A stretch of DNA of 64,000 bases. Origin: an uncultured Bacillota bacterium (lineage in GTDB: Bacteria; Bacillota; Clostridia; Oscillospirales; Oscillospiraceae). How positions within the stretch are numbered: the first letter of the stretch is position 1; each line of letters opens with the position of its first letter. Positions 9,333 to 14,204 of this stretch are shown one piece after another. The stretch spans positions 62,001 through 126,000 of the forward strand of contig CANSDP010000001.1 of the NCBI GenBank assembly GCA_947645675.1, in the 5' to 3' direction. The position numbers were made by a program, and so were the translations under genes. The notes under the pieces are model-generated. The model had not been told where the DNA came from. It saw only the letters and a program-made list of their open reading frames with translations, and ran no database searches.

Positions 9333-9821
9333 TTGAGGAGCATGGTCACGACCGGTACCGAAGAGACCGTATGCCGCCTTGTGCGGGAGTACAGCGATAT
9401 GCTGCTGCGCCTGGCCTGTACCCGTCTGTCCTCCGTCAGTGACGCGGAGGACGCGGTGCAGGAGGTGTTTCTGCGGCTGCTGTCCGCTCCCGTCTCATTC
9501 CGGGACGCCGGACATGAGAAAGCGTGGCTGATCCGAACCACCCTTCATCGCGCCAGTGATATCCGCCGCCAGGCGGAAAAGCGGAATCTCCCTCTGGAGG
9601 AGGCGGCCCAGACAGCTGCCCCTGAGCCGGGGACGGACCTGCTTCAGGCGGTACAGGCCTTGCCGGAGAAGTACGGCGCCGTGATCCATCTGCATTACTA
9701 TGAGGGATATTCCATCCGGGAGATTGGAACGCTTCTGGGCTTGCCCGCCGCCACGGTGGGCACCAGACTGGCCCGGGGCCGGGAACGGCTGCGGGAACTG
9801 CTGAAGGAGGAGATCAAATGA
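9333..9821 (+). CDS. ECF-type RNA polymerase sigma factor
   Basis: Region 2 (SDAEDAVQEVFLRLL) and region 4 (YYEGYSIREIGTLLGLPAATVGTRLARGRERL). Confidence 0.85.
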   Translation: MRSMVTTGTEETVCRLVREYSDMLLRLACTRLSSVSDAEDAVQEVFLRLLSAPVSFRDAGHEKAWLIRTTLHRASDIRRQAEKRNLPLEEAAQTAAPEPGTDLLQAVQALPEKYGAVIHLHYYEGYSIREIGTLLGLPAATVGTRLARGRERLRELLKEEIK

Positions 9822-10633
9822 ACTGGAATGACTACCGAAAGGCTGTAGACGCCCTTCCCCTTTCCGGCGATTTCCAGGAGCGGACGGAGGAGCTGGTGCG
9901 CCGAACCGCCAAAATCGTCAAACTTGAAAAGGAGTGTATTTCTGTGAAAAAGAAAGGTTTTGTCAAAGCTGTTTCCATCGCCGCGGCGGTGGCCCTGTTA
10001 ACCATTTCTGCCTATGCCGCGTCCCGTTTGCTCAGTCCGGCCCAGGTGGCGGACATACATGGGAACGCCGCTCTGGCCCAGGCCTTCGAGAGCGAGGACG
10101 CGGTCAAGCTCAACCAGTCGGTGCAGACGGAAAAGCTCTGCGTCACCCTGGCAGGATTGGTCTCAGGGGAGAACCTGTCCGAGTGGACCGATCAGGCCGA
10201 CCAGTCCCGCACCTATGCGGTGATGATTTTGGAAAGTCTGGACGGCACGCCGCTGGATATAGATGACTTCTCGATCACCGAGTATACCTTCACGCCTCTG
10301 GTGGCCGGGTTTACCCCCTGGTCTGTGAACAACTGGACCCTGGACGCCGGCGTCTCCCTTCTGGAGCGGGACGGTGCGCTCTATTATCTGCTGGACACGC
10401 GGAATATTGAGATGTTTGCGGACCACACGGTGTATATGGCCTTCTACCAGGGGAGGCTGCCCGACCCGGATATCTTTACTATGACTGAGGACGGGACCAT
10501 CTCTTTTGCGGAAAGCTTTGAGGGCCCCCAGGCTCTGTTCACCCTGCCCTTGGACGAGAGCAAGGCCGACCCCGCCGCTGTGGAGAAATTCATGAATGAC
10601 AGCGGCTTTGACCGGGAGTGGTTTACCTCCTGA
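9818..10633 (+). CDS. Putative anti-sigma / membrane protein partnered with upstream sigma factor
   Basis: ATGA overlap with the sigma gene; single TM (GFVKAVSIAAAVALLTISAYAA). Confidence 0.55.
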   Translation: MNWNDYRKAVDALPLSGDFQERTEELVRRTAKIVKLEKECISVKKKGFVKAVSIAAAVALLTISAYAASRLLSPAQVADIHGNAALAQAFESEDAVKLNQSVQTEKLCVTLAGLVSGENLSEWTDQADQSRTYAVMILESLDGTPLDIDDFSITEYTFTPLVAGFTPWSVNNWTLDAGVSLLERDGALYYLLDTRNIEMFADHTVYMAFYQGRLPDPDIFTMTEDGTISFAESFEGPQALFTLPLDESKADPAAVEKFMNDSGFDREWFTS

Positions 10634-10762
10634 TCGCGGGGATGACAAGCGCAGCACTTCAGTATAACACATTTTTCCCATTTTGTAAGGCACACTTTCC
10701 CAACCTCCGCATAGGATGAAACAGCCGTGAACGGCAAATTTAAAGGGAGGGGAGGCGTGTTC

Positions 10763-10834
10763 ATGGGTATCGTGGTGGTACGTTCCCCCCGGTGCCTGCG
10801 GGGGCTGCTGCGCAGGATTTTTAAGGTGAAATAG
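10763..10834 (+). CDS. spoVM: Stage V sporulation protein SpoVM candidate (23 aa)
   Basis: ATG preceded by gggaggggaggcg RBS; MGIVVVRSPRCLRGLLRRIFKVK*, an amphipathic Pro-containing peptide matching the clostridial SpoVM pattern (M-x-IVVVKSP-x-hLxGhLRxhF). Confidence 0.8.
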   Translation: MGIVVVRSPRCLRGLLRRIFKVK

Positions 10835-10974
10835 GGCATACATCAAGACTCCCGGACATATAGTGTCAACAAAGTGATGAGTCCTTGAAGGAGGCCTGTA
10901 TTCCCGTCTTTTTTGGGGAATAGGGGGCCATGTGAGGGGACGCGGGCTGATACTATGACAAGGGAGAGGACACA

Positions 10975-12495
10975 ATGGAATTTGAACGTGATACGATGAT
11001 AGGTTATGAGACGGTGGCGGAGGTGTCGCTGTGCCAGGAGGAGACGCTGGAGAGCATCGTGCCCGACGCCTGCCCGGATATTCTGCGAATTGTGGATGTT
11101 TGCGGACAGGCGACCCTCAGCGGCAAGCAGGCCCGGGAGGGGGCGGCTCAGGTCAGCGGAGTGGTCCGGGCGGTGATCCTCTACCAGCCCGAGGGAGGCG
11201 GCGGACTGCGGCGGATGGAGGCCAGCCTGCCCTTCACCTGTCAGGCGGAGGCTCCCGGCCTCACCGAGCGGGGCGCCGTGCTGGCCTGTCCCCGGCTTCG
11301 AGGGGCGGAGGCCAGGGCGCTGAACCCCCGGAAGGTGCTGCTGCGGGTGGACCTGGTGGTGGATGTGACAGCCTGCCAGCCGGTGGAGCGGCCGGTGTGC
11401 AGCGGGGTGACAGCCCCGGAGGAGAACGGAGTCTGTCAGAAGCAGTACCGGGGGGAGCACTATCTGCTGTGCGCTGTACAGGAGAAGCCATTTACCTTCT
11501 CCGACCAAATCAGACTGCCCACCGGCTCCGGGGAGGCCCCCATACTGCTGGCCGCCCGGGTACAGCCGGAGTGTACCGAGAGCAAGCTGATCGGCTCTAA
11601 GCTGATCTTCAAGGGGATGGCGGAGATATCCCTGCTCCTCCAGGAGGCGGAGGGGGGGCTGACCTCCTGCTGTGAGTCCATGCCCTTCTCCCAGGTCATT
11701 GAGACGGCGGGCGCCGGCGAGGAGGGGGACTGCCAGGTGACGGTAGAGGTGGCCTCCTTCCGGTGCGAGCAGACCCCGGGGGATGGCCGGGAGGTCAGCG
11801 TGGATCTGGAGCTGCTGGCCCAGGCCCAGGTGAGAGGACTGCGGCCGGTGACCCTTTTGCAGGACCTGTACAGCACCAGTAACCTGATGGAGGTAGACCG
11901 GGAGAATCAGGCCCTGTGCCGGCTGAGCGAGCAGTCGGTACGGCCCCAGGCCGTCCGGGAGCTGCTGGAGACAGGGGAGCTGGTCCGCTCAGTGGTGGAC
12001 GCCAGGCTGGCCCTGGGCCAGGTGCGTCAGAGCCGGGAGGGCAAGGAGCTGGCGTTGACGGTGGACGCCTGGCTTACGGTGATGTATCTGGATGAAAATG
12101 AGCTGGTCCAGTGTGTCCGCCGGTCCATCCCGGTGTCCTGCCGCCTGGACTGTGCGGAGGGCGTCCGGTGCTCCTGCTTCTGCGGATGCCCTGGGGAGGT
12201 CTTTGCGGCCCCTGCCGTGGGCGGGGTGGAGGTCCGCTTTACCGTGGAGTTCCACTGCCTGGCCACCGAGACTGCCGCCGTGCCTGCCGTCACCGCCGCC
12301 CGGATGGGGGAGGCCCGGAGCGCGGGAGAGGGGACCCGGCCCTCTGTGGTCCTGCGGATGCCGTCACCGGGGGAGGAGCTGTGGGATATCGCCAAGGCCC
12401 ACGGCACCACCATGGAGCAAATTCTCCAGGCCAACGAGCTGGAAGAGGAGGTCCTGCCCGCGGGGCGGATGCTCCTGATCCCCAGCGCGAGGTAA
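10975..12495 (+). CDS. DUF3794/SPOCS domain protein with C-terminal LysM (SipL-like)
   Basis: Repeats VPDACPDILRIVDVCGQATLSG...; C-terminal LysM PGEELWDIAKAHGTTMEQILQANELEEEVLPAGRMLLIP. Confidence 0.85.
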   Translation: MEFERDTMIGYETVAEVSLCQEETLESIVPDACPDILRIVDVCGQATLSGKQAREGAAQVSGVVRAVILYQPEGGGGLRRMEASLPFTCQAEAPGLTERGAVLACPRLRGAEARALNPRKVLLRVDLVVDVTACQPVERPVCSGVTAPEENGVCQKQYRGEHYLLCAVQEKPFTFSDQIRLPTGSGEAPILLAARVQPECTESKLIGSKLIFKGMAEISLLLQEAEGGLTSCCESMPFSQVIETAGAGEEGDCQVTVEVASFRCEQTPGDGREVSVDLELLAQAQVRGLRPVTLLQDLYSTSNLMEVDRENQALCRLSEQSVRPQAVRELLETGELVRSVVDARLALGQVRQSREGKELALTVDAWLTVMYLDENELVQCVRRSIPVSCRLDCAEGVRCSCFCGCPGEVFAAPAVGGVEVRFTVEFHCLATETAAVPAVTAARMGEARSAGEGTRPSVVLRMPSPGEELWDIAKAHGTTMEQILQANELEEEVLPAGRMLLIPSAR

Positions 12496-12501
12496 CATAA
12501 T

Positions 12502-12534
12502 AAGAGACGGGCCCTTTTCGGGTCCGTCTCTTTT
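12502..12534 (+). terminator. Rho-independent terminator
   Basis: aagagacgggccc ttttc gggtccgtctctttt. Confidence 0.85.
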
Positions 12535-12539
12535 CGTGT

Positions 12540-14204
12540 TTATTTCAGCCGGAAGGTGCTGACCAGCTCCTTCAACAGGCTGGCCTGGTTGGACAGCTCG
12601 CGGCTGGCGGCGGCGCACTCCTCGCTGGCGGAGGAGTTGCTCTGAACCACGGCGGAGATCTGGTCGATGCCCTCGGTGATCTGGGAGATGGCGGTGGTCT
12701 GGTTTTCCACCGCGTCCACCACAGCGGACATTCGTTCAGTTACACCGGCGGCGCTCTGGCTGGTGCGCTCCAGGGACTGGGTGACCTGGGACACCACGTC
12801 GCTGCCCTCGTTGACCGAGGTGAGGGAGCCCTCAATCAGCTCCTTGGTGGCCTTGGCGGCCTCGTCAGACTTGTTGGCCAGGTTGCGGACCTCGTCGGCG
12901 ACCACGGCGAAGCCCTTTCCGGCGGAGCCCGCCCGGGCGGCCTCCACGGCGGCGTTTAGGGCCAGGATGTTGGTCTGGAAGGCGATGTTCTCAATGGTGG
13001 CGATGATTTTGCGGATCTCCTCGGAGGAGCTGGAAATTTTCCCCATAGCTGTGTTCAGCTGATGGACATAGTCCACGCTGACGCTCAGGTGTCCGCCGGC
13101 CTCGTCCACGAATTTGCCAGCCTCCTTGGTGCCGTCGGCGGTGCGTTGGGCGTTGCCGGAGATCTCGCTGGTGGTGGCCGCCAGCTCCTCCACAGAGCTG
13201 GCCTGCTCCGCGGTGCCCTGGGCCAGGGACTGGGCGCTGCTGGACACATGGGTGGAGCTGAGCGCCACCTGCTCGGCACTCTCCCGGATGTGCTTCACCG
13301 TGTCGTTAAGGTGGTCGCCGATGGTGTCCATGGACTGGCGGATGGAGGCGAAATCCCCCACATAGCTCTGCTGGGCGCTGTGGGTCAGGTCGCCGCTGGC
13401 AATGGAGCCCAGCACGTTGGAAATTTCCCCAATATAGGACCGCAGGCGCTGGATGGTGTCCTTAAAGATAAAGGCCAGCTCCCCGATCTCGTCCTGGGAG
13501 CGGACGTTGATATTGACCTCCTCGCCGGTGCTCAGGCCCAGATTGCCCGCCACCAGCCGTCTGGCCACCTGGGTGATCTCGGCCAGAGGGGAGGAGACGG
13601 TCTTTTTCAGATAGGCGGCCATAATCAGACTGCACACAATGATGATGCCCAGGCTTACGACAGAGGAGGCGACAATGGTGTTAAAGGTCTGCCTGTTTGC
13701 CTCCGCCACAGAGATGCCGGCGAAGAGCAGACCGTTGATTTTGCCGTTTTCATCCCTGGTGGGGACGTAGGAGGCTAAGTATTCCTCGTTCAGGATGGTA
13801 GCTTCACCCACAAAGGATTTGCCCTGCTGGAGTATCATGCTGGACAAATCGGAGGACAGCTTGGTCCCCGTGGCCCGCTTGCCGTTCTGGACCACGGTGG
13901 TGTAGGCCCGGGTGTCGCCCTCAAAAATGGTGAATTCGCAGCCCATGCGGTCCTTCAGCTGGTCTAAAAGAGAATCCATCTCCACTCCGCCCTGCGACTG
14001 GCTGAGAAGGTAGGACAGCATGTCGGTACCGCTGACACAGCGCTCTTCCAGAATCCCTGTGGTCAGGGAGCGAAACATGGTTACGCACATGGCAACCGCG
14101 AAGAATACCGATACCATCTGCATAAGGATGACCACAAGGCCGACCTTCCGTCCGATTCCCCGGCGCCGCTGGTGCTGGGGCTGCTGAATTTCTTTCATAC
14201 TCAT
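12540..14204 (-). CDS. Methyl-accepting chemotaxis protein
   Basis: TM segments, HAMP, and signalling tip [55 protein letters not shown]. Confidence 0.95.

Follow-up and report, generated by a model that had tools for sequence, protein, structure and literature searches.

A probable spoVM micro-ORF beside a sipL-like gene in an uncultured member of the Oscillospiraceae

SpoVM is a small protein that marks the membrane of the developing spore, and SipL is a coat-building partner. The window (the whole 64,000-nucleotide stretch of contig CANSDP010000001.1 that was analysed) carries a 23-codon open reading frame upstream of a gene with the domains of SipL, which raises the question of whether the small frame is a genuine spoVM and what its place beside sipL signifies. 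The preferred answer, to which a probability of about 0.92 was assigned, is that the micro-ORF is a true spoVM ortholog whose product, to judge from the family, would anchor SpoIVA to the forespore, and that this coat-basement locus was relocated beside sipL. The features of the locus are as follows.

10710-10718, + strand: candidate sporulation-sigma-like -10 element CATAGGATG upstream of spoVM (CATA...T conserved in a 12-locus alignment)
10744-10755, + strand: ribosome-binding site of spoVM, AGGGAGGGGAGG (direct reading; near-invariant in 12 aligned loci)
10763-10834, + strand: spoVM, 23 codons, MGIVVVRSPRCLRGLLRRIFKVK (profile matches, linkage and codon statistics)
10836-10864, + strand: candidate sigma-E-like sipL promoter, GCATACA - 14 nt - CATATAGT (12-locus alignment and motif counts)
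10975-12495, + strand: sipL-like SPOCS-LysM gene, 506 codons (domain matches)
11077-11271, + strand: first SPOCS match (PF12673) of SipL
11548-11769, + strand: second SPOCS match (PF12673) of SipL
12367-12483, + strand: LysM domain of SipL, residues 465-503
12502-12532, + strand: terminator-like hairpin closing the spoVM-sipL pair (13-pair stem, T-rich tail, -27.6 kcal/mol, z -6.9)

The micro-ORF, its match to SpoVM and the sipL gene

The sequence-only reading had described a strong ribosome-binding site followed by a short frame with the pattern of SpoVM, and both were found in place. The AGGGAGGGGAGG site is strong and lies 7 nt 5' of the ATG, and the frame ends at a TAG read from the window. 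The ATG was preferred as the start because it yields the register with Pro at residue 9; a GTG two codons upstream was rejected, as it is not conserved and is replaced by TTT in most relatives. Pro9 is the SpoVM register, is invariant in all 44 rows of the family SpoVM alignment, and is given as the sole fully conserved SpoVM residue in PMC5607322. Residues 10-22 are predicted to form a strongly amphipathic basic helix; the hydrophobic moment is 0.90, a level reached by 1.7% of shuffles, and the net charge is +7.

The likeness to known SpoVM (NF033436; B. subtilis structure 2mvh) extends to length, Pro9, the basic amphipathic C-terminal half and a colinear full-length alignment. The window protein differs in having Gly2 for Lys2, Val6 for Ile6 and Leu15 for Ile15 (B. 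subtilis residues from PMC5607322). Residue 2 (window 10766-10768) is likewise Gly rather than Lys in most of the nearest loci. In B. subtilis the change of Lys2 to Ala blocks cortex formation via the CmpA pathway, and CmpA is restricted to the Bacillales (PMC5607322).

The NCBIfam SpoVM_broad model (NF033436) aligned with the frame end to end and colinearly (model positions 1-23 of 26) at 16.4 bits (E 0.0067), below the curated cut-off of 31 bits, and a Pfam search of the ORF returned no match. The sub-cut-off score would account for any omission of the ORF from a public record. A profile of 47 family SpoVM rows from which the genus was excluded (left out: the window, L032, L033 and L030) gave the micro-ORF 38.1 bits (E 1.4e-10). 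With this profile no other of the 2322 window frames scored above 10.0 bits, and the maximum on ten shuffled windows was 10.6 bits. A second profile was built from a 44-row alignment, A1 (left out: the window, L032 and L033 of the same genus, L003, L009, L010 and L030), in which the C-terminal tails of two rows were trimmed; it was trained on family loci that all turned out to lie beside sipL, though sipL played no part in their choice. When the window's own genome (82% complete) was searched with A1, the micro-ORF was the sole SpoVM match, at 37.6 bits, and no second or better SpoVM was found in it, including beside rpmB. Against solved structures, the family profile matched only B. subtilis SpoVM (2mvh).

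The curated cut-off was treated as a naming threshold, not as a defining feature. Of 150 family genomes, 12 have a SpoVM that passes it, whereas 72 have one by the family profile, which makes it probable that most SpoVMs of the Oscillospiraceae are overlooked by automatic annotation.

The next gene had been assigned the architecture of SipL, and this was upheld by matches to PF12673 (SPOCS; E 1.1e-22, three stretches) and, at the C-terminus, to LysM PF01476 (E 1.2e-8). The same architecture is seen in C. difficile SipL, which binds SpoIVA in a LysM-dependent manner (PMC5607322). The 82%-complete genome yielded no other PF12673 gene, and a gap of 140 nt separates this one from spoVM. The neighbourhoods differ: the window sipL has spoVM as its upstream neighbour, whereas in C. 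difficile spoVM is near rpmB and shares a transcript with CD25622, which precedes it (PMC5607322).

Selection on the frame and linkage to sipL

The spoVM frame was open in all 41 of the nearest named loci. Codon differences to the window totalled 158 synonymous and 94 non-synonymous, a synonymous share of 0.63 against 0.33 expected; the counts come from 41 of 79 named loci that share ancestry and are not independent. Across 42 sequences, 11, 4 and 21 of the 23 columns were variable at codon positions 1, 2 and 3. Median identity to the window was 0.86 in the ORF and 0.80 in the 30 nt 5' of it. Further upstream (30-200 nt) it was 0.58-0.63, and the spoVM-sipL gap gave 0.53-0.68. The frame is under purifying selection.

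A sipL homologue was located downstream on the same strand in 50 of 50 SpoVM loci from family genomes (the 30 best, and 20 chosen by hand from nearly full-length weaker matches, drawn from 150 genomes). Of 73 family-profile matches, found in 72 of the 150 genomes, 71 precede a co-oriented sipL by 83-324 nt (median 103 nt), and the two lying elsewhere are weak (E about 0.005). Starting from sipL instead, the micro-ORF was present at 79 of 80 named loci; at the sole exception, L193, a contig end leaves just 72 nt upstream. The adjacency of spoVM and sipL in the family is real, and the sequence-only reading, which paired two coat-basement components in one locus, was if anything somewhat understated: the SpoVM is constrained, and in many relatives the locus holds spoIVA as well. 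None of the three outcomes that would have spoken against that reading was seen: similarity to SpoVM was found by HMM, the 82%-complete genome gave no better SpoVM, and the micro-ORF recurs at orthologous loci.

Among the 125 sampled family genomes with a sipL, 53 gave no SpoVM match to the family profile. From these 53 genomes, 40 of 54 upstream stretches were read; a diverged micro-ORF occupied the same place in 4 and none was seen in 36. The gene is thus not universal: part of the family has lost it, carries it elsewhere or has a version too altered to be recognised. The diverged SpoVM-like micro-ORFs (L226, L232, L235 and L245), which lie 5' of sipL where the family profile finds none, may mark a relaxed or altered function.

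The 53 genomes lend some weight to the view that the window ORF descends from spoVM but is a relic nearing loss that no longer serves this lineage, as does C. difficile, in which SpoVM is largely dispensable and its gene nearly so (PMC5607322). A relic would hardly be expected to show the strong synonymous excess seen here, with only 4 of 23 second codon positions variable over 42 sequences, or to retain a conserved ribosome-binding site and promoter-like element, and this explanation is considered very improbable.

Position outside the family and transcription signals

The neighbourhood of rpmB is the usual location of spoVM (PMC5607322). Among the best-scoring matches fetched at each rank, rpmB was found within 1.5 kb of spoVM and convergent with it at 27 of 27 loci at phylum level and 16 of 23 at class level, and at none of 31 from the order or family. 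A sipL gene was near spoVM at 0 of 50 loci outside the order, where a distant SipL could escape the profile used, at 6 of 29 from other families of the order, and at 2 of 2 in the family; of the six order-level cases, one has sipL on the opposite strand and two have it about 1 kb away. In 40 further sister-family loci, some from genomes that overlap with the preceding set, sipL followed spoVM in the same orientation in 7, was divergent from it in 4 and was not in the stretch in 29, and rpmB was found in 0. In the four divergent cases (L266, L278, L281 and L292) spoVM and sipL share an intergenic region.

The small gene of the spoVM-rpmB locus in Bacilli and most Clostridia is the same as that of the Oscillospiraceae, where it differs in adjoining sipL. 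The window gene departs from known SpoVM (NF033436) in this respect, as it precedes sipL and is not beside rpmB, and in its score below the cut-off. To judge from the neighbour counts of these locus surveys, spoVM seems to have departed from rpmB no later than the origin of the order. The sipL link is the rule in the family and scattered in the sister families.

Upstream of spoVM, CATA...T was found within the 85-nt stretch at 47 of 79 named loci, against a mean of 3.4 in shuffles, but at only 7 of 49 in a wider family set. The spoVM-sipL gap contains it at 75 of 79 loci, where shuffles gave a mean of 4.6, and at 54 of 79 a -35-like [GT][ACT]ATA lies 15-18 nt away. The CATANNNT element was presumed to be a mother-cell sigma -10, on the basis of the sigma-E and sigma-K consensus. 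Given the conserved sigma-E-like promoter in the gap, sipL probably has a transcript of its own as well. In C. difficile, spoVM, sipL and spoIVA all depend on sigma-E, and expression of sipL and spoIVA exceeds that of spoVM 50- to 100-fold (PMC5607322); a separate sipL promoter fits such an unequal demand for SipL and SpoVM. The two genes are probably co-regulated, although not necessarily in one message only. Given the promoter-like element of sipL itself, any "functional unit" here denotes linkage and is not proof of a single transcript.

These elements bear on the proposal that the ORF encodes a leader peptide whose translation controls the expression of sipL, and that it resembles SpoVM only by convergence, both being short, basic and amphipathic. 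A short ORF 5' of a larger gene at a conserved spacing (83-324 nt, median 103) is what would be expected of a leader. With a promoter-like element inside the gap at 75 of 79 loci, however, many sipL transcripts would not include the micro-ORF; the same peptide is moreover divergent or distant from sipL in sister families, and outside the order it is encoded beside rpmB. The leader peptide was rejected on these grounds as barely credible. That the ORF is merely a non-coding basic stretch resembling SpoVM by chance, for which the sub-cut-off score of the curated model might be cited, was dismissed as negligible in view of 38.1 bits (E 1.4e-10) with the genus-excluded profile against at most 10.6 for shuffles and 10.0 for the next frame, conservation at 79 of 80 named loci and the codon statistics of 41 loci.

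spoIVA and the coat basement in the Oscillospiraceae

In the window, spoIVA is absent from the spoVM-sipL cluster; the SpoIVA of the same genome (PF20439, E 1.5e-36) is encoded by a 492-aa ORF on a different contig (G000:C23). In 39 of the 119 family genomes having both, the SpoIVA C-terminal domain follows sipL by less than 2.6 kb on the same strand, a placement that can be recognised only where spoIVA is on the same contig as sipL; spoVM precedes sipL in 26 of the 39. Both same-genus genomes sampled (G039 and G128) are among those with sipL and spoIVA adjacent. Where the named loci had enough flank, spoIVA followed sipL in 58 of 75; in 46 of these it is the next gene, and in 12 an insert intervenes. 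The order spoVM-sipL-spoIVA was also seen in loci of sister families f3, f5 and f142. Examples with the three genes in a row on one strand are L033 (G128), L032 (G039) and L181 (Flavonifractor plautii ATCC 29863).

At locus L141 the order is coaD - orf184 - spoVM - sipL - spoIVA, which is the upstream order of the window with spoIVA in place, and the window therefore looks derived. We infer that genes were inserted on both sides and that spoIVA has gone from the cluster. Between coaD-orf184 and spoVM the window holds an ECF-type sigma factor and then a protein without a family match (9333-10633). This pair was present in the flanks of just 3 of 80 named loci and looks like a lineage insert. 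Just after sipL, on the opposite strand, lies a chemoreceptor gene (Cache, HAMP and MCP signal; 12540-14204), in the place held by spoIVA in many relatives; the flanks of the 80 named loci showed no such gene.

In the preferred reading, a relocated but true spoVM, the protein would be made in the mother cell early in sporulation. By analogy with the family, the short amphipathic peptide would insert shallowly into the convex forespore membrane, sensing its curvature, and would hold the SpoIVA ATPase scaffold there. SipL, from the next gene, would bind SpoIVA through its LysM end and carry further coat proteins, and a physical cooperation of SpoVM with SipL may be supposed. In the order spoVM seems to have gone from rpmB, and in the Oscillospiraceae and several sister families it stands beside sipL. 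Counting against this reading are the sub-cut-off NF033436 score, the absence of a Pfam match, Gly2 in place of Lys2, the 53 of 125 genomes without a profile match and the small need for SpoVM in C. difficile.

A broader idea, tentative and on balance doubtful, is that the coat basement of the Oscillospiraceae is one spoVM-sipL-spoIVA module in which SpoVM is matched with SipL and SpoIVA. Marker, scaffold and adaptor would then have co-evolved and be co-expressed, with SpoVM and SipL filling the role of SpoVM and SpoVID in Bacillus.

The protein is of a known kind. Its arrangement with sipL was not reported in the literature searched: the passages and opening parts of abstracts covered, including those of PMC5607322, PMC6436350, PMC3533761, PMC9542656 and PMC10659427, contained no report of spoVM-sipL or spoVM-sipL-spoIVA adjacency. 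The sipL-anchored position offers a practical route to these tiny genes, which the curated model and the family profile recover so unequally. It also puts three coat-basement genes side by side in gut bacteria, Flavonifractor plautii among them, so that a single locus would suffice for a test.
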